DNA of 64,000 nucleotides. It comes from a virus. The position numbers and the translations under genes were made by a program. Every line of letters starts with the position of its first letter. Positions within the stretch are counted from its first letter, which is position 1. The notes under the pieces were generated by a model. That model was not told the DNA's origin, made no database searches, and worked only from the letters and a program-made list of their open reading frames with translations. The stretch is taken from positions 1 through 64,000 of IMG/VR virus record IMGVR_UViG_3300025151_000028; one strand, written 5' to 3'. Positions 14,678 to 58,775 of this stretch are shown piece by piece.

Positions 14678-14905
14678 TTATACATTAATATCTAGGAATA
14701 TCCCTTCATCAATTGCCATAACTCTAATAACTGTTGCTAAATCAGGTATCTGATCAGTTGGATAACCATCTATTTTATCCTTACCTAACAACTCATCTCT
14801 AGTTACATTTGTTGCAAATGGAGCTGTAAAGTTATTTATGTCTGAGTAGAGATTAAACAAGTGAAGATCTTCACCTATTGTGTCTATTTTTATTAAAGCT
14901 GTCAT
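14678..14905 (-). CDS. Stand-alone fibre-module protein
   Basis: 75 residues consisting almost entirely of the repeated module (F-N-L-Y-S-D-I-N-N-F-T-A-P-F). The usual GPFDLYSD core has become HLFNLYSD. It ends with VIRVMAIDEG, equivalent to the last strand of the other copies. There is no poly-Thr linker or extra domain. It is the last gene before the terminator at 14614-14646. A free module could cap or decorate an assembly built of longer module proteins; that is inference. Confidence 0.65.
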   Translation of the reverse strand: MTALIKIDTIGEDLHLFNLYSDINNFTAPFATNVTRDELLGKDKIDGYPTDQIPDLATVIRVMAIDEGIFLDINV

Positions 14906-14911
14906 ATTGTA

Positions 14912-15148
14912 TTATGAAAATATGATTGCAACATTCTCAGAGTTTGTACACGTTCCAGTGTTTTGAACTTTTAGAATTGTTGTATTTTGATTTACTCCTA
15001 CATCAACACCAGCTGGTGCTATAAGAGATGACATTGAAACACCAGTTGCCACAGGAGTGGTGAAAAGATCACTATTTTCATATATATCGACAGGTCCTGA
15101 ATTAGCTCCGTATGGTGCTGTTATTTTTACATTTACGGTAAAAGCCAT
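14912..15148 (-). CDS. Stand-alone fibre-module protein
   Basis: 78 residues. The whole protein is one copy of the module: a strand (FTVNVKITAP), then SGPVDIYENSDLFTTPVATGV and a last strand TTILKVQNTGTCTN. The Y-S-D-x-D of other copies is Y-E-N-S-D here. No linker or extra domain is present. It is 6 bases from its downstream neighbour and of the same size class, which suggests tandem duplication followed by divergence. Confidence 0.65.
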   Translation of the reverse strand: MAFTVNVKITAPYGANSGPVDIYENSDLFTTPVATGVSMSSLIAPAGVDVGVNQNTTILKVQNTGTCTNSENVAIIFS

Positions 15149-15174
15149 ATTATATTGTTTTTAAGATTTATAAA

Positions 15175-16437
15175 TTAAATTGTACATATATCAACAGATG
15201 AATCAACTTGACCACTTGTAGATATTTCCATTGCAAATCGTGAACTACCTGATACTTCAAAAGCATGCCAAGGTTGTGAAGTATTACCTTGGAAAATACT
15301 AGTTCCTTGTGCATTCTGATAAAAGATAGAGCTACTAGTTGGTGCATTACTTGCATTAACGTTGGACACCCAAATATCTAGTGTTAGGTTTTGAGCACAT
15401 GCAGAAGTAGAACTTGTTTGTCCGAATGGACTCAACAATCCTTGTGTCAACCCACCCACTGTAGTAGTGGTGGTAGTTGTAGCTGCTGTTGAACTAGTCG
15501 TTGTTGTTTGAGAAGGTGCAGTTGCTGTTATAGTACCTAAATCACAAGCTCCTACAGCACTACTCGTAGTAGTAGTGGTTGTTGGTGCTGCTGTTGTAGT
15601 AGTAGTTGTTGTTGATGATGTGGTACTAGTAGTTGTTGTGTTTACTATAATATTACCAATAACCTCAAGATCTTCTGTAAGTCCACCTTTAGTAAACGAT
15701 ACATCTGAAACAAGTGAATTAGTTGCAGATTGAGTATCACTTAATATTACAGCTGGTGACCCAAGACCTTGTAACGTTGCTCTGTTTTGGAAAGTATGTA
15801 TTCCAGTCTTTTGATTTGTAACTATTACTTTTACTACTGCTCCTGTACCAACTAGAATCTCTCCTGATAATGGGTAATTAGATGCATCAATACTTTCCTG
15901 AACTTGAACAACATCGTTTACAAGTATTTGCATGCCTACCTGAAATATTTCAGAAGGTGTAGTAGTTGTAAGTTCCCAACCTAACTTCTCAGGAGTTCCT
16001 GTAGTAGTTGTGGTTGTTGTTGGTGCAGTGGTTGTTGTAGTTGTAGTAGCTGCTGTGGTAGTGGTTGTTGTTGTTGGTGCCACAGTAGTAGTTGTTGTAG
16101 TAGTAGCTGCAGTTGTTGTTGTGGTAGTTGTCGGAGCTACTGTTGTACTTGTGGTTGTTGTAGCTACCGTTGTTGTTGTTGTGGTGGTAGGTGCAACAGT
16201 TGTTGTTGTAGTAGTTGGACAATTAGTTGGTAAGTCAATACAATTTTCACATGTACCAACAGAGCAAACTCGTATAATCGTTGCTCCCATAGGAAGTGTA
16301 ACTGTATATCCAGCTACTAAATCTACAGCTGGGACTTGTGTTTCAAATGGAGTTGTGAATCCGTCCGCATCTGAATATAAGTCAAAAGGTCCAGCAGCGC
16401 CTCCAGGTGGAATGGTTATGGTTATTTGTATTAACAT
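15175..16437 (-). CDS. Module-bearing fibre/adhesin with long poly-Thr stalk
   Basis: 420 residues. Residues 1-65 are the canonical module (AGPFDLYSDADGFTTPFETQV ending IIRVCSVGTCEN). About residues 75-146 form a stalk of seven-Thr runs separated by VAP or AAT, a near-perfect tandem repeat. A central beta domain (about 150-265) follows, then two more poly-Thr linkers and a C-terminal beta domain from about 335 (LDIWVSNVNASNAPTSSS..FAMEISTSGQVD). No signal peptide is seen, consistent with virion assembly in the cytoplasm. I infer a host-facing fibre. The Thr-rich stalk could carry O-linked sugars or act as a flexible spacer. Confidence 0.7.
   Translation of the reverse strand: MLIQITITIPPGGAAGPFDLYSDADGFTTPFETQVPAVDLVAGYTVTLPMGATIIRVCSVGTCENCIDLPTNCPTTTTTTVAPTTTTTTTVATTTTSTTVAPTTTTTTTAATTTTTTTVAPTTTTTTTAATTTTTTTAPTTTTTTTGTPEKLGWELTTTTPSEIFQVGMQILVNDVVQVQESIDASNYPLSGEILVGTGAVVKVIVTNQKTGIHTFQNRATLQGLGSPAVILSDTQSATNSLVSDVSFTKGGLTEDLEVIGNIIVNTTTTSTTSSTTTTTTTAAPTTTTTTSSAVGACDLGTITATAPSQTTTTSSTAATTTTTTTVGGLTQGLLSPFGQTSSTSACAQNLTLDIWVSNVNASNAPTSSSIFYQNAQGTSIFQGNTSQPWHAFEVSGSSRFAMEISTSGQVDSSVDICTI
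16001..16216 (-). repeat. ACN trinucleotide tract encoding the poly-Thr stalk
   Basis: About 215 bases of (G-T-N)n on the plus strand, read as ACN Thr codons on the minus strand. Alanine, valine and proline codons interrupt it at regular intervals, giving a period of about 19 codons (57 bases). Codons vary among ACA, ACT and ACC, so it is an imperfect microsatellite. Length change by whole codons would keep the frame. Confidence 0.8.
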
Positions 16438-16440
16438 GGT

Positions 16441-16692
16441 TTAAGGTATTAAAGTTGTTGTTGTTGTTATATTTTCTAAAACTATATCCAAATAATTGAC
16501 GCACTTGCCTATAGACTGCACTCGTACAATGTTTGTGTAATCTGGAACTAGAGAACTAGTGTATCCATTTAACAAGTCAGTGCCTGATACATCTGTTTCA
16601 AAAGGCGTAGTGAAATTATCTACATCTGAGTATAAGTCAAATGCAAAGGTATCAGATCCCATTTGAGATATGGTTAGTAGTACGGTCATCAT
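16441..16692 (-). CDS. Short fibre-module protein with Thr tail
   Basis: About 83 residues: module core AFDLYSDVDNFTTPFETDVSGTDLLNGY, last strand NIVRVQSIGKCVN, then a short tail ending in five Thr. I prefer the ATG at 16692, which overlaps the stop of the upstream gene, or the next ATG at 16689, over the in-frame ATG at 16701: the start then aligns with the M-(T/L/I) starts of sister modules. The Thr tail resembles the beginning of a linker whose distal domain has been lost or was never present. Confidence 0.6.
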   Translation of the reverse strand: MMTVLLTISQMGSDTFAFDLYSDVDNFTTPFETDVSGTDLLNGYTSSLVPDYTNIVRVQSIGKCVNYLDIVLENITTTTTLIP

Positions 16693-17018
16693 TATGAACA
16701 ACAGTTATTATTAATGTTTGTTATTTGTGAGTTAATGTTTATTATCTGTTCTTTAATAGAAGCAATGTCACTAGTGTTAGTTGCAACTTGATTTTTTAAC
16801 TCGACAAGAACAGAGTCTATTTTTGATAATGCTACATTGATTGTATCACAAGCTTCCACACCAGATCCTGGAAGAGTTGGACCATCGTACACAACTGTGC
16901 TCGATACAGTACCATTTGTTCCACAGGAGTTAGTACATTCATTACATGTACTTGTGCATCCACAAGGGTTATTTAAAACTACATCAGTGCAGCAAGGGTT
17001 TACAGGTAGGTATGCCAT
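16692..17018 (-). CDS. Short coiled-coil fibre protein
   Basis: 108 residues. The N-terminal part is Cys-rich (CCTDVVLNNPCGCTSTCNECTNSCG), followed by a strand VVYDGPTLPGSGVEACDTINVALSKID. That segment resembles the neck of the collar fibre next door (VKYTGVDVPVLGIKNGDSLSY). The C-terminal half is a predicted coiled coil (ALSKIDSVLVELKNQVATN to the Asn-rich end), typical of a trimeric fibre neck. It probably trimerises. No receptor domain is present, so it may be an adaptor. Confidence 0.6.
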   Translation of the reverse strand: MAYLPVNPCCTDVVLNNPCGCTSTCNECTNSCGTNGTVSSTVVYDGPTLPGSGVEACDTINVALSKIDSVLVELKNQVATNTSDIASIKEQIININSQITNINNNCCS

Positions 17019-17029
17019 TTTATTTTGTT

Positions 17030-18136
17030 TTAAGGTATGTAAATTATATAATATACTCCACGTCCAGGTTGATAGTTCTCGTGAGATTGTCCACCACCTG
17101 TAGGATTAAGAGTAACAGTATGTGTATGTGGAGGAAGAGGGTCTGCATTAAACTGTCTTTGTCTAAAGGCATTACTTCCACCATCAAATCCTCCACCACC
17201 TGGTATGCTATCACCAATGTAAGGTCCTGCTGCCCACCCTGTAGGGGTTATTGTAGGTGTTGATGGTCCAATAGTAACAGCGTGTGTATGTGAAGGAATT
17301 TGTCCTTGACTCAAAACTATACCGTTACTACCTACTGGAGTTGATATTGTATAAGTTGGGTTATCAGGTTCAGCAGGATCTACAGCTGTGTCCATTTGTC
17401 CACCACTCATGCTTCCATCACTAGTTCCAACTAGCACTCTACCTCTTAAATCAGGGGTTCCATTTTCACCATTACATAAATATATACTTACCCAATCACC
17501 TATACCTGCTCCAGAAGCATCAAAGTTATTAAGAAATGCAGTACCTCCAGTAGCAGCAACAATTGAATAAGGAACCATTCTATTAGCAATAAGTTGTTGA
17601 CCTGGATCATTTTGTATATAGTTTTCAATATACGTATTTATATCTGAAATTCTAACATAAGTGTTTTCAACAAAATTTATAAAACCATTAAGTTGATCAA
17701 CTAGTGTACAAACTTGGTATATTACAGATTGTAGCACTACTTGTGTATCACTTGGATCTGAACCTACTGGTAAATCTATACAATCTAGGTCATAGTCTTG
17801 TGAATCTCCTCCTGAGCCTCCTCCTCCTGAAATTTGTTCTTCTAAACTACATAAAAACTTTACGATTCCTGTTAAGTAGTTATTTAATGAAAGGGGATTA
17901 CAATTGTCTAGTTCTGCTTGTAAACTTGGACATATATCTGTCTGTGGTATTACAGGAAATATTCCTGTACCATCAAGCGATGAGGTTAGAAAACCTATTA
18001 ATGACTGCTCTACATAAGATAGAGAGTCTCCATTTTTTATTCCTAGAACAGGGACATCTACCCCTGTATATTTAACGCATTTGTCTGAGGTTATCTCAGT
18101 ACATCCGTTATAGCAATTTGAGCAATTATTTGACAT
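17030..18136 (-). CDS. Tail fibre with phage tail collar domain
   Basis: 368 residues. A Cys-rich start is followed by an attachment segment (VKYTGVDVPVLGIKNGDSLS) and helical stretches separated by a Gly/Ser linker near 118-125. The C-terminal ~160 residues carry the collar pattern: a G-x-W-V-S-I-Y-L-C-N-G strand, T-P-D-L-R-G-R-V-L-V-G near 220, an I-P-S-H-T-H motif followed by a second H-T-H-T repeat, and a terminal YYIIYIP. This fits the phage tail collar family, where His pairs bind metal in trimeric fibres. A host-recognition role is likely. Confidence 0.8.
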   Translation of the reverse strand: MSNNCSNCYNGCTEITSDKCVKYTGVDVPVLGIKNGDSLSYVEQSLIGFLTSSLDGTGIFPVIPQTDICPSLQAELDNCNPLSLNNYLTGIVKFLCSLEEQISGGGGSGGDSQDYDLDCIDLPVGSDPSDTQVVLQSVIYQVCTLVDQLNGFINFVENTYVRISDINTYIENYIQNDPGQQLIANRMVPYSIVAATGGTAFLNNFDASGAGIGDWVSIYLCNGENGTPDLRGRVLVGTSDGSMSGGQMDTAVDPAEPDNPTYTISTPVGSNGIVLSQGQIPSHTHAVTIGPSTPTITPTGWAAGPYIGDSIPGGGGFDGGSNAFRQRQFNADPLPPHTHTVTLNPTGGGQSHENYQPGRGVYYIIYIP

Positions 18137-18149
18137 GGTATTTTATATT

Positions 18150-19472
18150 TTAACAAGGGTTATTTAATGTATCTGTTAGACCAACTTGCCAATAAGTTGC
18201 TCCATCACATTCTTTATTTATTTGATCACTTCCTCCAAGTTCAGTTACGTACTCTATTGAGTTTTCATTTACAACAGTAAATAAATCACCTGCATCAAGG
18301 CTAGTAATTCCTAATTGGTTAGCTACTTCATCTATTCTACAAGCCCATCCAACTTGATATGAATTAGGTCCACCGTCACATGATGAACCACCTCCAGCAA
18401 AAACTAGTCCAATTACTTTTATAGTTCCTCCTATATTAGCAATTAAAGCAGATCCTGAATCTCCACCCCTTACTGGGTTACAACAAAGCTCACTTGGATC
18501 TTGTGATGTAGGATCTTCTAAAGTAGGTTTAAAATATCCTATAATATCTTCCATTTCAATAAGAGTAGATACTCCTTGTCTTTTATATGAAATAGGAAAT
18601 CCTCCTGTTGTTGTAAAAATTCTCATGGGGCAACTAGCTCCACCTTTAGGACCTGTTGTTCTTCCTGAACTATATAATTCTGGATTACTTGTAAGAGCAT
18701 TATCTATTTCCGAAGTTGTAGCAAAAGGTAGATTACTTGTTATAACTGAATCTAGTCCTACTTGCTTCCAACTTTCAAAAAGACTTATAACATTAGATTT
18801 TAATGAGAATAATGCAGCATCTACATTATTTACTAATCCTGAACTCTGTGGGTGAACAGGAACATATCTCACACCTCTTCCAATTATATTTGCTGAGGTG
18901 AAGTATTCTGCCCAACTTCCTCCAGCAACAGTTCCTTCAGTTCCTTGATATATGTTATTTGTTGGATCATAATCATTTTGTATCACTCCAGATAAATCTC
19001 TAGAGTCTGTATAAAATGCATCTGCAATTGTAACATGATTATTACTAAGTCCTAATATTGCCCCTGTAGCAACATCTTTTACAACTAATCCAAATGTACC
19101 TACACTTGTGTTAGTATTGTTACTACTTATAGATATACCACCTTTAACAGGTCTTGTATATGATCTGTTAGGTATTGATGCTGATCCTGCGTTTTGACCA
19201 CATGCAGAATTACAAGTACCTAGTAGCTCTGGTTTACCTATTTCCACAATATCTGTTTTAATAGACTGACTTCCAACTTTCACTTCAGTTGGTATAATCT
19301 CATCATCAGACAATTCTGAAAGAGGTTTTTTCTTTTCAACACCACATACAACACTTAACTCTCCTGTACTAACTCCATTAGATGATTTATAACCATACCA
19401 CACAGAAGTAAGACCTGGATTTGATCTGCGAACCTCTCTTAATTTATCTTTTATTTTTTGTGTTACTTTCAT
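18150..19472 (-). CDS. Trypsin-like serine protease encoded in the fibre cluster
   Basis: 440 residues. The catalytic triad is readable: H146 in LSNNHV, D218 in NNVDAAL and S339 in GGDSGSAL. This is the chymotrypsin/trypsin fold pattern, best matching bacterial members with the NNHV, DAAL and GDSGS motifs. Residues 1-105 form an N-terminal extension with Cys pairs (CNSAC near 87-91) that could be a propeptide or virion anchor. No signal peptide or membrane segment is seen. It lies between two fibre genes with 10-14 base gaps, so it is probably made with them. It may mature the fibres or digest a host surface layer; the sequence does not decide. Confidence 0.8.
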   Translation of the reverse strand: MKVTQKIKDKLREVRRSNPGLTSVWYGYKSSNGVSTGELSVVCGVEKKKPLSELSDDEIIPTEVKVGSQSIKTDIVEIGKPELLGTCNSACGQNAGSASIPNRSYTRPVKGGISISSNNTNTSVGTFGLVVKDVATGAILGLSNNHVTIADAFYTDSRDLSGVIQNDYDPTNNIYQGTEGTVAGGSWAEYFTSANIIGRGVRYVPVHPQSSGLVNNVDAALFSLKSNVISLFESWKQVGLDSVITSNLPFATTSEIDNALTSNPELYSSGRTTGPKGGASCPMRIFTTTGGFPISYKRQGVSTLIEMEDIIGYFKPTLEDPTSQDPSELCCNPVRGGDSGSALIANIGGTIKVIGLVFAGGGSSCDGGPNSYQVGWACRIDEVANQLGITSLDAGDLFTVVNENSIEYVTELGGSDQINKECDGATYWQVGLTDTLNNPC

Positions 19473-19481
19473 AATTTATAT

Positions 19482-22400
19482 CTATGCTGGTGTTATAGGA
19501 TCAAACTTTATCCATATTGTACTAGGTCCTGATGGGTCAACAGTAGTAGTGGTAGTGGTAGTTGGGCTTGTTGATGGAATAAAAGATAAATTTCCATTAC
19601 ACTCACCTGCATTACTCCAAGTTCTTAAATATTGATTATTAAACTCTCCTGGGCCAAAGAATGCTGTGTTGTCATTTATTAATGTAGTATTGTAAGGGAA
19701 ATTTGTATCTATTTCATATAACTTAATACCACTTACAAGTATATACATTTTACCTTCATAAACAAACATCCATTGCGCACTTGTCTGGATAAAGTATCCA
19801 TCTGGTGATGTTCCTGCAATCTGTATGTCTGTTATATTTATTTCAAGTTCTATATCTAAGGTGGTGTAATCCCTTTGAACTATATAAAGTGGATCAGCAA
19901 CATCTTGAGTATCCATTCTCTGATATATTATTTTATTATTTGAAAATATCGGAGATGCCCAATAAGATCTATCACTTCCTAAAGTAAATAAAAAGGTCAA
20001 TGTATATGAACCATCTTCATTTATTACTAGTTTATATATTTTACCAGTACCTGGATTGTTATTTATATTAATAGAATTAAGCAGAAGAGTATTATCATCC
20101 ACTACACAAACTATTGAAGCTAGAAAATATTCATCAGCTGGCCAACTTATATCTATTACATTGTTAGGATCTGAGGTTTCAACAATAGACAAGTCGCTTA
20201 GGTTCCATCTCTTTATACTAAGTTTTTCGAGTGAACTATTTGTTAAATATTGGAACATAATATTTTGTGAACTACCTGAGCCTATTATATTCTCTGGAGG
20301 TGCACCAAAACTGTCTGGAAGATCAACAAATTGATATTGGTTAGAAAGTGGATTATAGCGATAAAATGAATCAACGCCACTCGTTCCTCTTGCAGGGCGT
20401 GCCCACGTACAAGTAGTAGTTTCAACATCTAGACAACCTAGTAATAGTGGTCCTCCAGTTGGTGCATCACCAGATATAGTTAAAATTGTAAAAGGTGTGC
20501 TAGAGCTTATAATAAATTCTCCATCACCTTCTGTATCATAATCTGGTACACCTCCACCTATTGTGTTTCCTTGAACTTGAACATTACATCCAACACTTAT
20601 TGATACATCAGGTGTTCCTGTATTTGTATCAAACGTATAAACATCTCCACCACTTAAGTCAGGTTGAGAGTTAAGTACAGCAGCTCTAATAGGAATATTA
20701 TTAACAGGTTGTGAAAAAGTTAGTGTAATAGTAAAATCAAAACCTCTAATACTTCTCAATACATTATTTGCAGGTGGATTAGATATTCCACTACATCCTT
20801 CTTGTGGTATACCTCCTACAGTATCTCCTGACCTCAGTTGCATATTACTTTGAGTAGCACTAGCTGTAACCTGAATTCCTGAATAAGTAAAAGTAGCAGG
20901 TCCTATATACACCCACTCACCTTCATCATTTTGTTCAGTTAATGCAGGTATCCATGTAGCTCCTTCACAATCATCATACTGAATATTAACATTTGCACAA
21001 CCAGTTGATGTATGTATCCAAACAGTATCATCAGCCACTGTACCTGACAGTGTAGCATTGTATGGTCCTGTTTGATCAATGTTATATACTTGAAGTGTTT
21101 CTGGTTGAATTACCTGTAATAATCCATTTACACCCCATACAGGCATAGCTTTACTTGTACTAGTCCACGCATTGGTAAATTCAGGAACACCACGCTGTTG
21201 TAAATTAATAACAGGTGATGATGATGTCCAAGAACTTAAGTCTAACCCTTCATATTGTCTTACACGGTTTGATGCATTATTAGGTGATTCATTTTCATAG
21301 TATCTACCAGAAAGAATAACATTGTCATCATTAGTAATAAACATTCCTGTAAGCTCTGTTGTAATTCCATACGTATTACCAAAACTTACAGTTGCTTTAT
21401 CTATTTTATTATTTTCATTTAGTAGAATGTTACCAGATGTAGAAATATCCCATGAGTAAACACCCATACTAGCTTCACCATCATCTCTTGCACCAAATCC
21501 TGCAAGTAACGTATTATTATCAGCAGTTGTAGCTATTGCAGTTATTTCACTTCCCCATATACCTCTGCTAGATAGATTATCTACATCAATAGATATTTCT
21601 CTAACAAAAGATAGAGTTGGTGTAGGACCAGATGTATCTATATCCCATTCTCTAATATATTGAAGTTCAGGTGGTCTAGCATTATTTACATTGAAATCAC
21701 CTACATAGAAATCAATAATTACTCCCCTCACATCTGTTGGAGATATATTAGTAAGTGCTAATTTTGAAATACCATTGTTTTCTGCTGTAATTTTAGTTGA
21801 TCCAACTTGAAAAGACCCATTTCCAGACTCCTGATAAGCTTGCATGTTAACTTGATTTGGACTTATCTGTATTGTTTCGTATGTAGGAATGTCTTGCTCA
21901 TCATCACCTCTAACACATTGTATAATCTGCTCACCTCTAATAGGAGAATCACTGGTTACAGATACAATCTCTATATCACCTTCTGTTCTTGGATCTCCAC
22001 TATAGCCCCATGCACTAGATATAAATTGAATACAGTTTATAGGAGGATCAAACTCCATAGTCAATTCTCCATTAACTTTTAATGCGAAACTTGCACTTGT
22101 ACTAGTATTTGTCTGATTTATGTAAAATCCATCACATAGGTCAAAAGTTCCTGGTGTTGAATCATATATTGGATCAGGACCATTAAATGTTGTAGTTAAC
22201 ACTACACCATTAGATAATGTTTTTGTTCCATTTCCTGTTACAGCATTAGGAAAACCTTCTGGATTAGTTATATCAATATTACCACAAGCTGCAGAAGATG
22301 CAGGATAGCTAGCTAACCATAACTTACTTGATGTAGAACAGATAGGTCTATTTATTCCTGAAGTGATTGTAAAATCATTAGGCACTAACACCACAGTTGA

Positions 22401-22817
22401 TGAGTTAGTATTGAAGTCGTATACAGCTATTTCTCCAGGGTTACCTCCATAAGTTGACCAAGTACATGGTGAGAATCCTGGATATCCAGTAGTAGTGGTA
22501 GTTGTAGTTTCTGGCGCAGGGCAAACAATTGTTCCACTAAAGTTACAGTCTGGTATTATACAATTAATCTCTCCAGAGAAATCACAATTTGGTGTAGCAC
22601 AGTTGTATATATCTGTTGTAAAGGGTGCACAATCTGCACCTAAATCTAACAATCTAACAGTTGTTGTTCCATCAGGAGCTACGACTTCATAACCTAATAA
22701 AAGGTCAGCCTTGCTTACATTTTGTGCAAATGGTGTAGTGAAACCATCAACATCAGAGTACAGATCAAAAGGACCTGACTCTGCACCTGCGAAACTTAAT
22801 GTTATAAATATTATCAT
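19482..22817 (-). CDS. Large module-bearing adhesin with propeller-like repeats
   Basis: 1111 residues. Residues 1-62 are the module (SGPFDLYSDVDGFTTPFAQNV). Cys-rich repeats (CDFSGEINCIIPDCNFSG) and a seven-Thr run near 104-110 follow. Residues about 185-378 are a beta domain (NPEGFP.AVTGNGTK.LSNGV.L) that is duplicated in the neighbouring vWA protein. Beyond this, strands of the type REWDIDTSGPTPTLSFVREI and DDNTLLLNS recur at intervals, suggesting beta-propellers or kelch-like blades. A second region near 650-790 again has C-x-G and beta strands. The C-terminus holds a poly-Thr run before the last ~15 residues. Probable receptor-binding protein. Confidence 0.65.
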   Translation of the reverse strand: MIIFITLSFAGAESGPFDLYSDVDGFTTPFAQNVSKADLLLGYEVVAPDGTTTVRLLDLGADCAPFTTDIYNCATPNCDFSGEINCIIPDCNFSGTIVCPAPETTTTTTTGYPGFSPCTWSTYGGNPGEIAVYDFNTNSSTVVLVPNDFTITSGINRPICSTSSKLWLASYPASSAACGNIDITNPEGFPNAVTGNGTKTLSNGVVLTTTFNGPDPIYDSTPGTFDLCDGFYINQTNTSTSASFALKVNGELTMEFDPPINCIQFISSAWGYSGDPRTEGDIEIVSVTSDSPIRGEQIIQCVRGDDEQDIPTYETIQISPNQVNMQAYQESGNGSFQVGSTKITAENNGISKLALTNISPTDVRGVIIDFYVGDFNVNNARPPELQYIREWDIDTSGPTPTLSFVREISIDVDNLSSRGIWGSEITAIATTADNNTLLAGFGARDDGEASMGVYSWDISTSGNILLNENNKIDKATVSFGNTYGITTELTGMFITNDDNVILSGRYYENESPNNASNRVRQYEGLDLSSWTSSSPVINLQQRGVPEFTNAWTSTSKAMPVWGVNGLLQVIQPETLQVYNIDQTGPYNATLSGTVADDTVWIHTSTGCANVNIQYDDCEGATWIPALTEQNDEGEWVYIGPATFTYSGIQVTASATQSNMQLRSGDTVGGIPQEGCSGISNPPANNVLRSIRGFDFTITLTFSQPVNNIPIRAAVLNSQPDLSGGDVYTFDTNTGTPDVSISVGCNVQVQGNTIGGGVPDYDTEGDGEFIISSSTPFTILTISGDAPTGGPLLLGCLDVETTTCTWARPARGTSGVDSFYRYNPLSNQYQFVDLPDSFGAPPENIIGSGSSQNIMFQYLTNSSLEKLSIKRWNLSDLSIVETSDPNNVIDISWPADEYFLASIVCVVDDNTLLLNSININNNPGTGKIYKLVINEDGSYTLTFLFTLGSDRSYWASPIFSNNKIIYQRMDTQDVADPLYIVQRDYTTLDIELEINITDIQIAGTSPDGYFIQTSAQWMFVYEGKMYILVSGIKLYEIDTNFPYNTTLINDNTAFFGPGEFNNQYLRTWSNAGECNGNLSFIPSTSPTTTTTTTVDPSGPSTIWIKFDPITPA

Positions 22818-39229: not shown

Positions 39230-39319
39230 ATGAAAAGAAATGATGACACATGCAACACAGCAGTACTTATACTCACTATACTATGTGTTGTTATGTACTT
39301 CTTAGGTAAATATACATGA
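39230..39319 (+). CDS. 29-residue single-pass membrane peptide
   Basis: ATG at 39230, stop at 39317-39319. A polar start (MKRNDDTCNTA) is followed by a hydrophobic stretch (VLILTILCVVMYFLG), so a membrane-spanning peptide is likely. It is the first of a series of small plus-strand genes, with the next ATG one base after its stop. Too short to assign a role. Confidence 0.5.
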   Translation: MKRNDDTCNTAVLILTILCVVMYFLGKYT

Positions 39320-39320
39320 T

Positions 39321-39455
39321 ATGGAAGATGATTTTGATTACCAAGGACGTTCTAAGAAGCGTTATGAGAATAACATGAAGATTGGTTGTCTTATAGCTAT
39401 ACTCTTTTGGGGTTTAGTTATAACTATCTTCTTATACAAAATGTTTTGGGCATAG
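39321..39455 (+). CDS. 44-residue single-pass membrane protein
   Basis: A charged N-terminus (MEDDFDYQGRSKKRYENN) precedes a transmembrane segment (IGCLIAILFWGLVITIFLY, residues 21-39). It starts one base after the preceding peptide gene. Two tiny membrane proteins in tandem suggest a membrane-directed function, for example early modification of the envelope. The role is unknown. Confidence 0.55.
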   Translation: MEDDFDYQGRSKKRYENNMKIGCLIAILFWGLVITIFLYKMFWA

Positions 39456-43100: not shown

Positions 43101-43298
43101 ATGAAGTTTATAACCTTTTTAATTAGATGGGTAGCAGGCAATTTGTCTATACCTTTCTGGGTAGTAGGGCATATACACTTATCTATACATGATTTTCATG
43201 ACCTATACGAAGTAATTAGTAGTGTAGGCATGAATATCATTGTAGCAATTGGATTTTATTTAGAATGGAGAGACGTAAATAAACAAGAACATGAATGA
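43101..43298 (+). CDS. 65-residue membrane protein with two hydrophobic segments
   Basis: Two hydrophobic stretches: FITFLIRWVAGNLSIPFWVVGHI and SVGMNIIVAIGFYLEW. The end is charged (RDVNKQEHE) and overlaps the polymerase start by 8 bases. It may be a small membrane partner of replication, or an early membrane modifier; the role is inferred. Confidence 0.55.
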   Translation: MKFITFLIRWVAGNLSIPFWVVGHIHLSIHDFHDLYEVISSVGMNIIVAIGFYLEWRDVNKQEHE

Positions 43299-45249
43299 CG
43301 TAATTATATATGATATAGAAACTATGCAAGAGTGCTTCATTGTTGTATGTATGCAACCTGAGAAGACACCTCGTAGCTTTGTAGTAAGCAAGTGGCAGAA
43401 CCAACTGGATGCATTTGTAAAATATACAGACACACACAAGGAAGCATATTGGGTAGGTTATAACAACTTACGTTTTGATGGTCAGGTAGTTGAATGGATA
43501 CTCAGAAACTATGAGCAATGGCATGATTGTACAGGACTAGAGATATGTGCTAAGATTGCACAGAAGGCTCAGGATGTTATACATGATGCTAACTTTGATG
43601 TGTTTGCTGAATATAGAGAGTATGAGCTTACACTCAAGCAACTTGATTTGTTTAAGATTCACCATTATGACAATAAGAACAGACGTGTAAGTCTGAAGAG
43701 GTTAGAGTTTGAGATGGATCTTGAAAACATTGAAGAGATGCCTATACATTATGCAAAGACAGGACTAACAAGAGATGAGGTGTTCTTATCACTACAGTAC
43801 TGTTTCAATGATGTTGATGCAACTTATGAGTTTTACAAGATAACTCTTGGTGATACAGATCATCCACTATACAAGGGTAATAACCAGATACAACTAAGAA
43901 AAGATATTGAAGAGGAGTTTGGTATACCTTGTTTAAACTATTCAGATAGTAAGATAGGGGATGAGATAATCAAGAAGTATTATTGTGAGGAGAAAGGTAT
44001 AGATATACGTGAGCTTCCTCGCAAGGGTTACTTCAGAAAGAGTATAAACCTAAAGAATTGTATAGCACACTATGTAGAGTTTGAAACTGAACAGCTACAA
44101 AAGTTTCTTGAGACTATTAAGAAGCTTAAGTTGGGCCTTCAGGATGACTTCAAAGAGCATATACATTTCTATGACAATGTCTATTCATTTATGAAAGGTG
44201 GTCTTCACACAGAGAACAAGCCTGAAGTATTTGAAGAAGATGAAGAGTATGAAATCATTGACTGGGATGTAGCTAGTTACTATCCTGCTATTATTATTAA
44301 TAGTGAGAAGTATCCTGCTCATCTAGGAAAGGAGTTCTTGCGTGGGTATAAGCAAATGTTTGAGAAAAGACTAGAGCTTAAACCACAGGCCAAGAGTGAC
44401 AGGAGAATCAAAGGAATCGTAGGAGCACTTAAACTTGCAGTTAACTCTGTGTATGGTAAGTCATCTGATATGAATTCATGGATATATGATAGGCAACTAA
44501 CTATGTTCACCACTATAACTGGTGAGCTTAGTTTGATGATGCTTATTGAGAAATATGAACTGAATGACATACATGTGATCTCTGCTAACACAGATGGTGT
44601 AACGATTAAAGTGAGAAAAGACTTGATTCCTAAGATGCATGAGATAAACAAATGGTGGTGTGATGTTACACAGTATGTACTGGAGCGCACAGACTACACA
44701 AAGATTATCTTCTCAACAGTTAATGACTACCTGGCTATCATGCCAGATGGGTACATAAAGAAGAAAGGTGACTTTCTTACAGACTTTGAACTACATAAGA
44801 ATAAGTCTGCACGTATTGTACCTATAGCACTAGAGCAGTATTATGTAAATGGTATACCTGTTAAGGAAACAATCATTAATCATAAGAACTTGTATGACTT
44901 CTGTATTAGAAAGAAAGCCTCTAAAGACTTTCACTATGAAGGAGTTGATGCATCTAATGCTATAACTAAATATGATAAGCTCATCAGGTACTATGTAGGT
45001 AAGACTGGTGAGAAAGTTTACAAAGTGAAGAACGAGTCTTCTAATAGCAAAGCTGCTAAAAGAAGTCAAGTAGAGGCTGGTGAGTGGAAGTGTTATGTAT
45101 GTAACACTCTTCCTTCCAACTCTCCAGTGGACAATGTAAACTATAATTATTATATAGACAAAGCAGAGAGTATGATAACTAAAATTTTGACCAACGGTAA
45201 GCGTAAGAAGAGTACGTTTATCCCTGGTCAACTAAATCTTTTTGGTTAA
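43291..45249 (+). CDS. Family B DNA polymerase
   Basis: 652 residues. Exonuclease motifs: D8-I-E10 (Exo I), N58..D63 (Exo II, NNLRFDG) and Y170-C-F-N-D174 (Exo III). Polymerase motif A is D326-x-A-S-Y-Y-P (DVASYYP), motif B is K381-x3-N385-S-x-Y388-G, and motif C is S-A-N433-T-D435-G. In motif C the first Asp of the family's D-T-D is Asn. The size and motif set fit a proofreading family B polymerase, as in some crAss-like groups. The C-terminal ~100 residues include a C-x2-C. It lies in an early operon with helicases and SSB. Confidence 0.9.
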   Translation: MNDVIIYDIETMQECFIVVCMQPEKTPRSFVVSKWQNQLDAFVKYTDTHKEAYWVGYNNLRFDGQVVEWILRNYEQWHDCTGLEICAKIAQKAQDVIHDANFDVFAEYREYELTLKQLDLFKIHHYDNKNRRVSLKRLEFEMDLENIEEMPIHYAKTGLTRDEVFLSLQYCFNDVDATYEFYKITLGDTDHPLYKGNNQIQLRKDIEEEFGIPCLNYSDSKIGDEIIKKYYCEEKGIDIRELPRKGYFRKSINLKNCIAHYVEFETEQLQKFLETIKKLKLGLQDDFKEHIHFYDNVYSFMKGGLHTENKPEVFEEDEEYEIIDWDVASYYPAIIINSEKYPAHLGKEFLRGYKQMFEKRLELKPQAKSDRRIKGIVGALKLAVNSVYGKSSDMNSWIYDRQLTMFTTITGELSLMMLIEKYELNDIHVISANTDGVTIKVRKDLIPKMHEINKWWCDVTQYVLERTDYTKIIFSTVNDYLAIMPDGYIKKKGDFLTDFELHKNKSARIVPIALEQYYVNGIPVKETIINHKNLYDFCIRKKASKDFHYEGVDASNAITKYDKLIRYYVGKTGEKVYKVKNESSNSKAAKRSQVEAGEWKCYVCNTLPSNSPVDNVNYNYYIDKAESMITKILTNGKRKKSTFIPGQLNLFG

Positions 45250-45512
45250 TGAAAAAGAGAGCTAAGATAAATAGAGGTAATATAACTAGACATCTTATTG
45301 AGTATCAGTTAGATATGGTTGGAAAGCGATTAGTAGACACATTAGATGATGACAAATGGTATTTCAACTGGACAATGACAAGAGAACAATATAATGAGTT
45401 CTATAAGTATGCTATAAGGACACTTAAGAAGGTGTTTAAGTTTAACACAAATAAAGCAAAAGAAACGTTCGACTGGTTCTATGAACAATTCGGACTAAGA
45501 ATTAAAAATTAA
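45249..45512 (+). CDS. Small basic helical protein beside DNA polymerase
   Basis: 87 residues, basic, with long helices (NITRHLIEYQLDMVGKRLVDTL; FKFNTNKAKETFDWFYEQFG). Its ATG overlaps the stop of the polymerase gene, so it is probably coupled to it. A processivity or accessory role is possible but not shown by any motif. Confidence 0.5.
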   Translation: MKKRAKINRGNITRHLIEYQLDMVGKRLVDTLDDDKWYFNWTMTREQYNEFYKYAIRTLKKVFKFNTNKAKETFDWFYEQFGLRIKN

Positions 45513-45530
45513 CAATTAAAATCAATAATT

Positions 45531-45773
45531 ATGAACAACGGAGTATTATTATTCACAATCCTTGTAATGCTAGTAGGACTAGCTTACACAATGTATGCAG
45601 TTTTCTTTGATAGCCAAGAGCTACCAGAACCAACACCAAAGCGTAAGAGAGGTAGACCAAAGGGAAGTAAGAATAAGGTCAAGAAGACTAGTATAATAGT
45701 TAACAAACCAAAACGTGGTCCAGGTAGACCTAAGGGATCTAAAAACAAGAAGAAGAATGTCAAAGCTAATTAA
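45531..45773 (+). CDS. Membrane-anchored AT-hook protein
   Basis: 80 residues. A transmembrane segment (residues 4-26, VLLFTILVMLVGLAYTMYAVF) precedes two AT-hook motifs, KRKRGRPKGSKNK (37-49) and KRGPGRPKGSKNK (61-73). AT-hooks bind the minor groove of A/T-rich DNA, which suits this genome. The combination suggests that phage or host DNA is tethered at the membrane. It is in the replication operon, just after the polymerase. The overlap of its last codons with the next gene's start suggests coupling. Confidence 0.75.
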   Translation: MNNGVLLFTILVMLVGLAYTMYAVFFDSQELPEPTPKRKRGRPKGSKNKVKKTSIIVNKPKRGPGRPKGSKNKKKNVKAN

Positions 45774-45981
45774 CGAAGACTGGGAACATGCAGCTTATGC
45801 TAATGATAAGATGTATGAAGGAGAGCGAAAGTATAGAATGGAGCTCGAATGGCAAGAGTGGGAACACGAACAACAAAAGAAGAGAAAGAAACCTGCTACT
45901 ATAGTGGTAGAAAAACCAGTAAAAGATGAGAATGCACATATCCCCACAAGTATTCAAAGAACTCATCAAAAAAAGCTATAG
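45757..45981 (+). CDS. Small charged coiled-coil protein
   Basis: 74 residues from the ATG at 45757, which overlaps the end of the AT-hook gene; a GTG at 45715 would lie well inside it, so I reject that start. The sequence is highly charged and helical (YRMELEWQEWEHEQQKKRKKP). It may pair with its neighbours as a structural replication factor. Function unknown. Confidence 0.45.
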   Translation: MSKLINEDWEHAAYANDKMYEGERKYRMELEWQEWEHEQQKKRKKPATIVVEKPVKDENAHIPTSIQRTHQKKL

Positions 45982-46558: not shown

Positions 46559-46702
46559 ATGCAAAACACACTAGAATTTAACGAGTGGATGAAAAAGATT
46601 AGAAGCAATTATTATTCAGACGACAGACAGATGAATAATGCTTTTGAGAAACTAAGAAAAATAGCAAACAATAAAAATTATAAAGATGAAGATAATATTT
46701 AG
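46559..46702 (+). CDS. 47-residue small helical protein
   Basis: ATG at 46559, stop at 46700-46702. Charged helices (LEFNEWMKKIRSNYYSDD, AFEKLRKIANN). The next ATG (46686) lies inside its last codons. No motif; probable small regulator or chaperone. Confidence 0.45.
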   Translation: MQNTLEFNEWMKKIRSNYYSDDRQMNNAFEKLRKIANNKNYKDEDNI

Positions 46703-46802
46703 TATAATACTATGGTTAGTAGTAGCAAGAGTAATGATATGGCTAGGTGGATACATATGGCCTGAGGATAGAGATAACTTTGATAACAATTTAAGATACT
46801 AG
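46686..46802 (+). CDS. 38-residue membrane peptide beside DnaB-like helicase
   Basis: MKIIFSIILWLVVARVMIWLGGYIW is hydrophobic, a single membrane segment, then a polar end (RDNFDNNLRY). Its stop is one base before the helicase ATG. It may be a membrane-linked replication component; inferred. Confidence 0.5.
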   Translation: MKIIFSIILWLVVARVMIWLGGYIWPEDRDNFDNNLRY

Positions 46803-46803
46803 C

Positions 46804-47868
46804 ATGAGCTTTGAACTACTAAAGAAAGAAGTACAAAAAGGTATCGATGGCCGTAATGGTGGTATACCTATGGGTTTTGATAGGCTCAATAGGTACGTAG
46901 GTATCAGAAAGTCTATGTACTATCTTATTGGTGGTCTAACTGGTTCAGGTAAGACTAGTTTTATTGATGATGCTTTTGTTCTTAATCCTGTAGATTGGGC
47001 TCTATCAGAAGAAGGTAGAGCTTCAGGTATTAAGGTGAAGGTGTGGTATAGATCTATGGAGCGTAGTAGAACTTACAAGTTTGCTAAGTGGACTTCACGT
47101 AAAATATTTCTAGACCAGGGTATAATAATACCAGTTAATAAACTACTTGGTTGGACAGAGAAGATGACTAAAGATGAGCATGACTTATTTCTAATGTACG
47201 AAGACTACATGAATGAACTATCAGAAATTGTTACAATCATTGATGGTCCTGAGAATCCTGTAGGTATCGCTAAAGAGCTCAAAGCATATGCACTAGAGCG
47301 TGGTGAGATAGTACAAGAGAATAAGTATAACAAAATATATGTTCCAGACGATCCTAATGAGATAACTCTTGTTGTGTTGGATCATATTGGCCTACTTAAG
47401 ACTACTAGAGATCAACCAACAAAGAAACAAGCTATTGATAAGATGAGTGATGAGCTTAGATATGCTCGTGACTTCTATGGTCATAGTCCTGTTGTTGTTA
47501 GTCAGTTCAACAGATCTATATCTAATCCCATCAGGATAAAGAATGGTGATGTTGAACCACAGCTAGAAGACTTTGCTGACAGTTCTACCACTCAAAACGA
47601 TAGTGATGTGTGTATGGCCTTATTTGACCCTATGCGTTACAATGTTGAAGATCCATCTGGGTACAATCTAGGTAAACTTAGAGATGACTTTGGTGGTAAG
47701 TATTTTAGAAGCTTAAGATTAATCAAGAACAGTTATGGTGAAGATGATATCAGAATTGGTCTTGCATTCTTGGGCCAGATAGGTATGTTTAAAGAGCTAC
47801 CTAGACGTAGAAACATAACTGATGCAGACTATGAGTCTGTAGTAAACAAATCATTTTTTATATCATGA
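46804..47868 (+). CDS. DnaB-like RecA-fold helicase
   Basis: 354 residues. Walker A G44-L-T-G-S-G-K-T51. Walker B is LVVLDHIG near residues 198-205. The QFNRSI segment near 235 resembles motif H4 of the replicative helicase. It lacks the N-terminal primase-binding domain of DnaB, as in short phage helicases. Its stop overlaps the next gene's ATG by four bases. It probably unwinds DNA at the fork. Confidence 0.85.
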   Translation: MSFELLKKEVQKGIDGRNGGIPMGFDRLNRYVGIRKSMYYLIGGLTGSGKTSFIDDAFVLNPVDWALSEEGRASGIKVKVWYRSMERSRTYKFAKWTSRKIFLDQGIIIPVNKLLGWTEKMTKDEHDLFLMYEDYMNELSEIVTIIDGPENPVGIAKELKAYALERGEIVQENKYNKIYVPDDPNEITLVVLDHIGLLKTTRDQPTKKQAIDKMSDELRYARDFYGHSPVVVSQFNRSISNPIRIKNGDVEPQLEDFADSSTTQNDSDVCMALFDPMRYNVEDPSGYNLGKLRDDFGGKYFRSLRLIKNSYGEDDIRIGLAFLGQIGMFKELPRRRNITDADYESVVNKSFFIS

Positions 47869-54904: not shown

Positions 54905-57190
54905 ATGAGATTAGAAAATCAAAAACAATCAAACGTCCTAGAAACAGGACCAGCTAACAAGAGCATAGGAATGTCCCTAGACTTAGATTCTGCACAGGTA
55001 TTGATGCAGATGTTAAGTAAGAATCTGTATTCAGATGCAATAGGCTCTACAGTTAGAGAGTGTGCCAGTAATGCACTGGACAGTCATAGAAGAGCAGGAG
55101 TGAATAAACCTATCGTGGTATCTCTTGTAAGAAATGACAGTAACAATTATGAATTCTCTGTTGAGGATTTTGGTGTTGGTCTAGACGCAAATGATGTAGA
55201 GAAGATTATCAGTAAGTATGGTAAGTCTACAAAGCGTGATAGTGATACAGAGCTTGGTATGATGGGTCTTGGTTTCAAGGCCCCTCTAGCTTATGCTAGT
55301 AGCTTCTACTTTAGATGTAGAAAAGATGGTGTAGAGCGTAAGTATATGATGTATGAAGGTGAGGAAACTAACACTATTGATCTAATATATGAGAAACCAA
55401 CAACAGAAGGTAATGGTGTTAAGGTGATTATACCTATCAAGTGGGGAGATCGTTGGGACTTTACAAGTAAAATTAAAGAGCAGCTTGCTTATTTTGAGCA
55501 TGTGTATTTTAATGTGGATGATGTAGATAATAACTTTGTGATTCATAGATCCAACTTGTTTCAGTTCTCTGAGCTATCTTCTGACAACTATCTGCATGTA
55601 TGTCTTGATGATGTATACTATCCACTAGACTTTAAGAAGCTTGATATAGATAGAATAGAAATACCTGTAGGATTGAGACTTAGTTTGACAGATGGTGTCT
55701 TTCCTACACCAAACCGTGAGGCTCTTAGGTATACACCTGAAGCAAAGAAAGCTATTCTAGAAAAGATTAAACGCTTTGCTAATGTAATGACACAACGTTA
55801 CAATCAGTCAGTCACTGTAAATAGTGATGTGTATGCTGTATTGAAATACTATACAAATAGCAGTAGATATATCAAGATGTTTGGTCAGGAGTTTGACTAT
55901 AATCAGCTTGCTAAGTTTGCTACAGCTAGAATTGCTACACCTAAAATACCTGGTGTAAATACACTGGAGTTGCATACACTAAGTAATTATTCATTTACTA
56001 CACTTCTTAAAAACTACAGACGCTCATACAAATATGAGAATGGTAGAATGTATGAAATTAAATCTGATAACACTTGGGCAGCACGTGTAGAGTGGGATGC
56101 AAAAGATAGAAGACACTATATACTTAATGGTGACATGCGAGGAAACAAGAAGGCCTATCTAAGAGAACTTGCAGAAGACCATGAATCTAGATGTGTGTAT
56201 TTTATTAAGGAGAAATCAAAAAAGGATTACGTAAAACTTAAAGGGGCTCAGGGATACAAAGATCTTCTGAAGCTTAACAACTATCCTAAGGATCAGTGGA
56301 GAACTGTACTCAAAGAGTGGAGACACATTGAGAGTCTTTTACTTGCTGATCTTGTTGATGCTGATGCTATTGAGGTGCCTCAAGACTGGCTAGATGCTAG
56401 AAAGAATAATAAGGTGGCTAAGATGAAAGCAACTAAGGCTGCTAAAGGTGCAAAGCTTGAAGGTGATTTCAATTGTAAGATGGCTGATAATCTTCTTAGA
56501 TATAATAGTGGTAGAAACTGTAAGTTTGTAGCTAATCGTTTGAATACTAAGGATATTGAAGAGGGTAGTACAGTGTATCTCTACACACATCATGATAACT
56601 TTATGGTTCTTGATAACATGTATGAGGACACTAGAAAGCTAAACATTAAATACATCACACTGTCTCAACGAGAACTAAAGATTATTGAAGACTCAGGAGA
56701 GACAATTGACAATCTTGTGTCTTATGATGATTTTATTAAAGGGCATGAGTTGTTTGTTAAGATAGTTACAGCTGTACGTATTCACAGATTCGCTAAGAAG
56801 TATAATGATGTATTTGAAAAGAGAAGCTATATAAAGCAAGTTAATGAAGAACTTGGAGAAAATCTAGAAGATCTTTCAACATATCGAAATGATTATCTAC
56901 ATTCTGGTAAGTACACCGAGTTTGGTGATCTTGATGCTTTGGTAAACATTGCTACAGAGAACAAGTTGTTTGATGCAAACTTTTATGTTTTACAAGAGAA
57001 GGTGCACCAGACACTACGCACTCACTACTATTTCAATACACTTGCAAAGGTGATGGGTTATCAACACCTCAATGGGGAAATCCTAGATTGTATGGCACAA
57101 CTAATGACATGTAATGGATTAGAAGTGAACGAAGACTATGAGTATAACTATCTAAAGGAAGCGCTGAAAGACAGCGAAGAAACAGAGTAA
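54905..57190 (+). CDS. rIIA-like GHKL ATPase
   Basis: 761 residues. ATP-binding motifs of the GHKL fold are readable in the first ~140 residues: RECASNALDSH (N box), VEDFGVGLD (G1 box) and GLGFKAPLAYASSF (G2 box). The remainder is helical and beta-rich with a charged insert near 490-510 (KATKAAKGAKLEGD). The T4 rIIA protein protects against exclusion by lambda Rex. rIIA- and rIIB-like genes are commonly side by side, as here. The protein probably acts at the membrane or against host defence. Confidence 0.8.
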   Translation: MRLENQKQSNVLETGPANKSIGMSLDLDSAQVLMQMLSKNLYSDAIGSTVRECASNALDSHRRAGVNKPIVVSLVRNDSNNYEFSVEDFGVGLDANDVEKIISKYGKSTKRDSDTELGMMGLGFKAPLAYASSFYFRCRKDGVERKYMMYEGEETNTIDLIYEKPTTEGNGVKVIIPIKWGDRWDFTSKIKEQLAYFEHVYFNVDDVDNNFVIHRSNLFQFSELSSDNYLHVCLDDVYYPLDFKKLDIDRIEIPVGLRLSLTDGVFPTPNREALRYTPEAKKAILEKIKRFANVMTQRYNQSVTVNSDVYAVLKYYTNSSRYIKMFGQEFDYNQLAKFATARIATPKIPGVNTLELHTLSNYSFTTLLKNYRRSYKYENGRMYEIKSDNTWAARVEWDAKDRRHYILNGDMRGNKKAYLRELAEDHESRCVYFIKEKSKKDYVKLKGAQGYKDLLKLNNYPKDQWRTVLKEWRHIESLLLADLVDADAIEVPQDWLDARKNNKVAKMKATKAAKGAKLEGDFNCKMADNLLRYNSGRNCKFVANRLNTKDIEEGSTVYLYTHHDNFMVLDNMYEDTRKLNIKYITLSQRELKIIEDSGETIDNLVSYDDFIKGHELFVKIVTAVRIHRFAKKYNDVFEKRSYIKQVNEELGENLEDLSTYRNDYLHSGKYTEFGDLDALVNIATENKLFDANFYVLQEKVHQTLRTHYYFNTLAKVMGYQHLNGEILDCMAQLMTCNGLEVNEDYEYNYLKEALKDSEETE

Positions 57191-57260: not shown

Positions 57261-58775
57261 ATGAGTAAATTTTTAAGTTTGGAATGGTTCAAAAACAAAG
57301 TGGACCATTCAGTAGAGAAGGTAATTGAGAAGAAACTTGATACCTTAATGAACCAGCAAGATGAAGCAGCTGGACAACCATTTAGCAGTGCTAAGTTGGT
57401 AAATGATGTACTAACTATTGTGATGAATGATGGTTCTGTAATTACTAAGATGGATGCTACGGAAGATCATTATGCAGCTGTACAGCTAGCAAAGAATGTA
57501 GCAGACTTATATTCTATTGTTAGTGATCCTAGTGTTGTTAGTGAGAAAATTGAAGAGGAGAAAAGGATTGCAAGACTTTTAGCTCTTCGTGAAGGACTTT
57601 CTATTCTAAGAGAGAGTGGTGAGTTTACAGTGGATGGAGATAGTGTATACTTCAAAGGTATATCCAGGTCTCTACCACAACTACTAGTCGAAGAACTTAT
57701 CGATGAGGTGAGTCGTGCTAAAGAGTTGGGTATTCCACTAAATGATTATGATGGATATCAGTCTCTCAAGAGATTCTTTATGTGGTGTGCACTTAATCCA
57801 AGAGCTGAGGTGGCACACGAGCTATACAGATTCTTGAAAGAGAACAGCTTCCGTATCACTAAGCAGGGATTCTTTGTAGCACTACGTAATGTTGTTACAC
57901 TACATGGATCTCCAGAGCTTGTACACTTCATCTCTAATACATACAACAAAGTGAAAGCTGTATGGAAGAAGAGTCCAGATGACTACACTGTGTTCCTACA
58001 AAATGGTGAATACAAACTTGTGCATGATGACAAGTTATACCGTGAAGAAACACGAACCAGTACAGTTTGTAAAGAGTGCTGGGGAGAAGGTGGTTACTAT
58101 AATTTTGATGATACATATGCTGATCAAGATGAATGGGATGAAACAGAGTGGATAGAATGTGATAATTGTGGTGGAACAGGTGAAGTGGAAGAGTATGAGT
58201 ACACAACAAATGTTATGGTGGACCATGGAGAAGAGATAGGTAAACTTACAGCTCTATATCTAGACCTACCTAATAGACATGAGAATCGCTTCACAGATGA
58301 TTGGACTAAAACATTTGACATACGTGTAGGTAAGGTGGTTAACATGCCTAAAGAGCAGTGTAACTGGTCAACACAAGATTGTGCTGCAGCTGGTTTACAT
58401 TTTACTTCTGACCAGATACACTATGTAGGATGTGGTGATCAGTCTGTTCTAGTTCTTATCAATCCTATGAAGGTTGTTGGTATTGGGACACACAAGGGTA
58501 GATGCTATGAGTATTTGCCAATCATGACTGTACCAAGAGATGAGGCTACAGAGATTCTTCATGACAATCAGTTTGACACTCTACAGCTTGATGAAGAGTA
58601 TGCAATCCGTGAGCTTGAGGATCTAGAAGCTAAGGTTCAGGAAGGGTTTGTATCTGAAAGTTCTAAGTATGAATTCAATTTACCAAATGTTAGCAGTGCT
58701 GACATACGTAATATTGTAGGAAGCTTAGAAGATATGAAGGCTGAGATACGAGACAGAGTTGTATCTTTAGATTAA
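57261..58775 (+). CDS. rIIB-like protein with inserted DnaJ-type zinc finger
   Basis: 504 residues. The segment NPRAEVAHELYRFLKENSFRITKQGFFVALRNV matches the rIIB pattern and is followed by a C-terminal GLHF-type motif (CAAAGLHFTSDQ near residues 375-388). Residues 270-307 contain C-x2-C-x-G-x-G twice (C270/C273, C300/C303), as in the DnaJ zinc finger. This insert is not in the T4 rIIB I know. The gene lies directly after rIIA-like; the pair may act together against host defences. Confidence 0.75.
   Translation: MSKFLSLEWFKNKVDHSVEKVIEKKLDTLMNQQDEAAGQPFSSAKLVNDVLTIVMNDGSVITKMDATEDHYAAVQLAKNVADLYSIVSDPSVVSEKIEEEKRIARLLALREGLSILRESGEFTVDGDSVYFKGISRSLPQLLVEELIDEVSRAKELGIPLNDYDGYQSLKRFFMWCALNPRAEVAHELYRFLKENSFRITKQGFFVALRNVVTLHGSPELVHFISNTYNKVKAVWKKSPDDYTVFLQNGEYKLVHDDKLYREETRTSTVCKECWGEGGYYNFDDTYADQDEWDETEWIECDNCGGTGEVEEYEYTTNVMVDHGEEIGKLTALYLDLPNRHENRFTDDWTKTFDIRVGKVVNMPKEQCNWSTQDCAAAGLHFTSDQIHYVGCGDQSVLVLINPMKVVGIGTHKGRCYEYLPIMTVPRDEATEILHDNQFDTLQLDEEYAIRELEDLEAKVQEGFVSESSKYEFNLPNVSSADIRNIVGSLEDMKAEIRDRVVSLD

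Follow-up and report, generated by a model that had tools for sequence, protein, structure and literature searches.

A predicted membrane anchor joined to HMGA-like AT-hooks in a small protein of a phage replication cassette

Does a protein of 80 amino acids, encoded amid the replication genes of an uncultured marine-type phage and combining a predicted membrane segment with AT-hooks, hold DNA at the membrane, and does it bring the replication machinery there as well? The protein is the product of the open reading frame at 45531-45773 on the plus strand (reading MNNGVLLFTILVMLVGLAYTMYAVFFDSQELPEPTPKRKRGRPKGSKNKVKKTSIIVNKPKRGPGRPKGSKNKKKNVKAN; reference record IMGVR_UViG_3300025151_000028) in the window, that is, the whole stretch of 64,000 nucleotides that was analysed. 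Both roles had been suggested in a sequence-only reading of this DNA. The gene and its parts are as follows.

45531..45773, plus strand: membrane-AT-hook protein gene (open reading frame; in the slot at 38/49 loci of the family B-type DNA polymerase, PolB; dN/dS mostly 0.1-0.5)
45537..45608, plus strand: codons of the single predicted membrane helix, residues 3-26 (Kyte-Doolittle maximum 2.21; AlphaFold2 helix)
45630..45680, plus strand: AT-hook 1, residues 34-50, PTPKRKRGRPKGSKNKV (15/16 match to HMGA1 2EZD/2EZE; GRP.GSKN in all 30 slot proteins)
45711..45752, plus strand: AT-hook 2, residues 61-74, KRGPGRPKGSKNKK (P in place of the first arginine of the core; read from the sequence)

After a single N-terminal hydrophobic stretch, with a 19-residue Kyte-Doolittle maximum of 2.21, come a short linker, acidic and rich in proline, and then a basic tail in which GRPKGSKNK occurs twice. 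In the AlphaFold2 model, based on an alignment of 30 sequences, residues 3-26 form one helix (mean pLDDT of 93 for residues 11-20) and the protein beyond residue 26 is unstructured. Relatives were sought at 49 PolB-anchored environmental loci from IMG/VR, read downstream of the polymerase, and a membrane-plus-hook protein occupies the same slot at 38 of them, giving 30 distinct proteins. All 30 have a membrane segment near the N-terminus (hydrophobicity 1.80-2.95), with 0-1 lysine or arginine residues before it and 11-27 after it (0 and 20, respectively, at L104, which carries an identical copy of the window protein). By the positive-inside rule, this asymmetry predicts that the tail of the window protein and its slot relatives lies on the cytoplasmic side, with the N-terminus outside.

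The protein had been described as one membrane segment followed by two GRPKGSKNK hooks; both elements are present, but the second hook lacks the full R-G-R-P core. Hook 1 (KRKRGRPKGSKNK) has this core in a basic setting, and in a search of solved structures its stretch PTPKRKRGRPKGSKNK shares 15 of 16 residues with the HMGA1 AT-hook peptide PTPKRPRGRPKGSKNK (2EZD/2EZE, E=0.0017). This peptide is the second of the DNA-binding domains of HMG-I(Y), and its NMR structure was determined on AT-rich DNA. The 17-residue HMGA1 stretch PTPKRPRGRPKGSKNKG is nearly identical to the phage PTPKRKRGRPKGSKNKV, and the likeness takes in the C-terminal GSKNK extension. Of the three HMGA1 hooks, the second has the highest affinity for DNA, owing to adjacent polar and basic residues (PMC11354804, a 2024 review). 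Hook 2 of the phage protein reads R-G-P-G-R-P, that is, GPGRP only, and from its sequence is expected to bind DNA less well than hook 1. The resemblance of hook 1 to HMGA1 most likely reflects convergence, not common descent.

Searches with the 80-aa protein placed it in no known family. Besides HMGA1, the PDB gave just weak receptor stretches, and the AT_hook profile PF02178 gave no match at E<=1, the motif being very short and HMMER filters discarding weak matches. Pfam and PHROG families gave no usable match; in PHROG 38176 the hook alone was aligned (residues 31-52 against 42-63 of 163, E=6.3e-4), leaving the family profile uncovered. Among described phages the window protein had no match at E<=0.1, and the protein of a close relative, searched at E<=10, had no more than four matches, all of them short (about 20-28 residues). 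The pairing had been called rare, and a hook joined to a membrane anchor is indeed unusual, while single GRPKGSKNK hooks are themselves very common in environmental phages.

A chance reading frame or a chance motif is very unlikely, judging from the sequences of the relatives, because the slot is conserved, the lysine and arginine pattern is kept, GRP.GSKN is invariant in all 30 slot proteins, close pairs of these proteins have dN/dS mostly of 0.1-0.5, and synonymous codon variation is seen at the hook among the slot genes. The membrane segments are unlike each other across subclades (MNNGVLLFT..., MEISTIQVV..., MEIKTVISV..., MDNNHITIV...). A freely varying membrane sequence combined with a fixed GRP.GSKN is expected if the protein has two jobs, namely to be in the membrane and to hold DNA. 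Relatives have one or two hooks, the number switching often on the PolB tree, and within the subclade of the window protein no conserved surface was found besides anchor and hook.

The gene had been assigned to a replication operon, and its surroundings bear this out. From about 39.2 to 63.3 kb, plus-strand genes are packed nearly contiguously (gaps of at most 70 bases), and this run includes the genes for PolB, a DnaB-like helicase, a second helicase, a Sak4-like protein and a primase; the terminase, portal and major head protein genes are on the minus strand. The nearest members of the run are listed below.

43101..43298, plus strand: 65-aa protein, membrane nature doubtful (Kyte-Doolittle maximum 1.54; reading frame conserved)
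43291..45249, plus strand: PolB, upstream in the same operon (PHROG 1252, E=1.9e-138)
45249..45512, plus strand: conserved 87-aa protein between PolB and the membrane-AT-hook gene (order kept in relatives)
45757..45981, plus strand: conserved 74-aa charged protein, its start overlapping the end of the membrane-AT-hook gene
46686..46802, plus strand: 38-aa single-span membrane protein, same operon (Kyte-Doolittle 2.39; kept in most relatives)
46804..47868, plus strand: DnaB-like replicative helicase (Pfam DnaB_C, E=1.6e-13; PHROG 19, E=8.3e-15)

In relatives the slot order is PolB, the 87-aa protein, the membrane-AT-hook protein, the 74-aa protein and a 209-aa protein. Of the two tiny membrane proteins said to flank the gene, the one at 46686-46802 stands, but the product of 43101-43298 is no clear membrane protein. 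Two further tiny single-span proteins (39230-39319 and 39321-39455; hydrophobicity 2.19 and 2.53) open the plus-strand run, and rIIA- and rIIB-like genes lie in tandem (54905-57190 and 57261-58775) after the replication genes. Between 38400 and 52500, 12 terminator-like sites were observed against 4.9 expected by shuffling (sd 2.0). On the minus strand, at 14678-22817, several proteins have a common N-terminal stretch like FDLYSDVDNFTTPF, which is found at the starts of 15175-16437, 16441-16692 and 19482-22817 and in similar form in 14678-14905; it is a repeated domain, and these are likely virion proteins. The closest described relatives of the major head protein are from Flavobacterium psychrophilum phages (about 23% identity) and a Leptolyngbya phage (26%), and a search for bacterial genomes carrying the PolB, made to find the host, returned none.

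The gene is missing at 11 of the 49 PolB loci (L117-L121, L123-L126, L142 and L143), which still have PolB and, in most cases, the neighbouring small genes. No hook pattern was found in the records of these loci; some of the records are fragments, and there are records of 51 and 42 kb among them. On the PolB tree, the label 'absent' takes two changes in the best tree, and the starred branches force only one. Because these 11 relatives do without it, the gene looks like an accessory to the replication cassette and not a fixed or obligate part of the replisome. AT-richness was considered as a driver of its presence and ruled out, as the mean G+C is slightly lower in relatives without the gene (0.333) than in those with it (0.352).

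The 80-aa protein probably ties DNA to the inner side of the cell membrane, as the earlier reading had suggested; that it is a membrane-anchored DNA binder encoded among the replication genes has good support from sequence, through the anchor, the predicted topology, the near-exact HMGA1 hook, the conserved slot and the purifying selection. We give slightly better than even weight to the fuller reading that it is a DNA-membrane tether holding AT-rich DNA, most likely newly replicated phage DNA, at the inner membrane during early replication. This small protein would cross the inner membrane once, with the N-terminus outside and the C-terminus in the cytoplasm, and its flexible tail would bear a strong HMGA-type AT-hook and a weaker second hook. 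Many copies would be spread across the membrane, each gripping the minor groove of A/T tracts, so that many weak contacts might add up and keep the DNA near the membrane in the early replicative phase of infection. Membrane insertion, DNA binding, phage rather than host DNA as the target and a benefit to replication are what we infer from these features. The genome had been called very A/T-rich, which does not hold, as the window is 65% A+T and thus not extreme. A/T tracts of six or more occur about 18 times per kilobase in the window, so the phage DNA would offer many binding sites, as presumably would that of the host; such tracts are not special to phage DNA, and hence the hook need not prefer it.

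The earlier suggestion of a membrane-bound replisome is no more than plausible. In this case, the protein would bind PolB, the helicase or the 87-aa or 74-aa neighbour and so fix the replication complex at the membrane. The fixed position of the gene between PolB and the DnaB-like helicase speaks for such an anchor, as does its overlap with the gene of the 74-aa neighbour, which suggests coupled translation; the loss of the gene from loci that retain PolB and mostly its small neighbours, together with the lack of a conserved surface besides anchor and hook in the subclade of the window, makes it unlikely, if worth keeping in mind.

Less probable still is a takeover of the host, in which the tail would attach to the nucleoid of the cell and either draw host DNA to the membrane or silence it there, like a membrane-bound H-NS-like silencer. 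AT-hooks recognise A/T tracts in any DNA, related RGR motifs are used by H-NS and Lsr2 (PMC10011098), and the gene lies among many small genes without an assigned function, but it is conserved alongside replication genes. H-NS and Lsr2 silencers combine an oligomerisation domain with a C-terminal RGR/AT-hook-like domain, and the 80-aa protein differs from this build in that the AlphaFold2 model consists of a helix and a disordered tail, with no oligomerisation domain and no Pfam match.

We consider it improbable by a wide measure that the target of the basic tail is RNA or anionic lipid and not DNA, the protein then acting at the membrane on transcripts or ribosomes. The tail is highly basic, and RNA can be bound both by AT-hooks and by the extended AT-hook (PMC11354804), but simple charge attraction would not need the GRP.GSKN that all 30 proteins keep. 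Furthermore, in studies cited in PMC11354804, RNA binding of HMGA1 is assigned to its first hook and not its second, and it is the second that hook 1 matches, judged by its RGRPKGSK sequence. A holin- or lysis-timing-like protein with an incidental basic tail would suit the size and single span, as in small holins, and the rIIA- and rIIB-like genes of the same genome, but a location inside the replication cassette and an invariant hook beside a variable membrane segment make this very improbable.

The preferred reading, a DNA-membrane tether, might extend beyond this family. A linker module, KRAR.KKG...DD.STP..NEAW.GG, is present in 16 of the 30 slot proteins and absent from the window protein, and in the form RAR..KG...DD.STP..NEA[WY] (the NEA module) it recurs in many small marine-phage proteins of varied build and also in proteins of Roseobacter, Vibrio and Synechococcus phages. 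Examples are as follows.

L007, 2775-3101: NEA-module protein
L009, 5800-6111: NEA-module protein
L033, 2062-2259: NEA-module protein
L090, 5944-6117: NEA-module protein

The motif is an undescribed one. Proteins with this module belong to no Pfam family and have only weak and sporadic PHROG matches. Many of them have no span and carry instead a short W/F/K-rich N-terminus, such as MGIWNKFVNFMVGEP or MFNWIKNLFFGEE, with RGRPKGSKNK at the end; in one (L087, 5069-5386) the module occurs twice in tandem before the hook. Some very short proteins, 37-42 aa long, are made up of an N-terminus rich in aromatic residues and the hook RGRPKGSKNK at the C-terminus; MKWLLSSYWWSLLMGKKAPSKRGRPKGSKNKPKKTKAK is an example. 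Their starts are at L153 5942, L167 927, L177 48, L188 1990 and L206 4596, the one at L153 being near terminase and portal genes. Several of the small hook proteins lie near replication or recombination genes, their larger neighbours including genes for DNA polymerases, exonucleases and Sak4, and for one group those for terminase and portal. When loci were gathered solely by the DNA pattern of the hook, with thresholds chosen by the analyst, a span or amphipathic N-terminus was found in 16 of 25 clusters of small C-terminal-hook proteins, which may share ancestry, versus 92 of 538 other small ORFs from those loci (odds ratio 8.6, p=6e-7). This enrichment comes largely from NEA-motif proteins (4/13 outside these and the family of the window protein), and thus independence is not claimed.

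It is a tentative lead, which we hold with less than even confidence, that marine phages have a class of micro-proteins not yet described, to which the window protein belongs as one branch, and that members of the class staple the DNA of phages from several unrelated lineages to the membrane. In the proposed build, either a span or a short amphipathic helix would make the N-terminus membrane-seeking, the RAR..KG...DD.STP..NEA module would often be present, and an HMGA-like AT-hook would lie at the C-terminus. DNA organisation during replication is poorly known in tailed phages besides phi29, and an anchor and an HMGA-like hook alone make a minimal, testable DNA-membrane tether; if related builds serve alike in several marine-phage lineages, membrane attachment of phage DNA might be a general theme.

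As far as sequence searches tell, no described phage protein has the anchor and AT-hook build. The p16.7 protein of phi29 has a folded homeodomain-like part, and such a domain is absent from the 80-aa protein, whose tail is modelled as unstructured and is AT-hook based. Replication of phi29 at the membrane is proposed to be anchored via the small proteins p1 and p16.7 (PMC4974454). Of these, p16.7 is a membrane protein that binds single-stranded DNA and terminal protein; its proposed role there, recruitment of the viral DNA to the membrane, is similar to that proposed here. The 80-aa protein would likewise have an N-terminal span and a cytoplasmic DNA-binding part, as predicted from the 30 proteins and the modelled helix at residues 3-26. 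No sequence relation between the two was seen, and they are not taken to be homologous; the DNA primase gene of the window genome argues against protein priming of the phi29 type. In EBNA1 of Epstein-Barr virus, too, AT-hooks serve to attach the viral genome to part of the cell, according to work cited in PMC1950889, there to chromosomes in the nucleus and here, as proposed, to the membrane. An AT-hook protein of a PM2-like element of Ralstonia eutropha is proposed to serve replication of the viral element, and the description in PMC1950889, as far as it goes, mentions no membrane segment. HMGA1 itself is soluble and nuclear. It carries three hooks and no span, unlike the phage protein with its membrane segment and, among relatives, one or two hooks. 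In plant AHL proteins, a type-I AT-hook is defined by an RGRP core with Gly-Ser-Lys-Asn-Lys after it, as in the phage hook; these proteins are larger and nuclear and have a PPC domain, unlike the 80-aa phage protein. Set beside these systems, what is new is the union of AT-hook and membrane anchor in one protein of a phage replication cassette.
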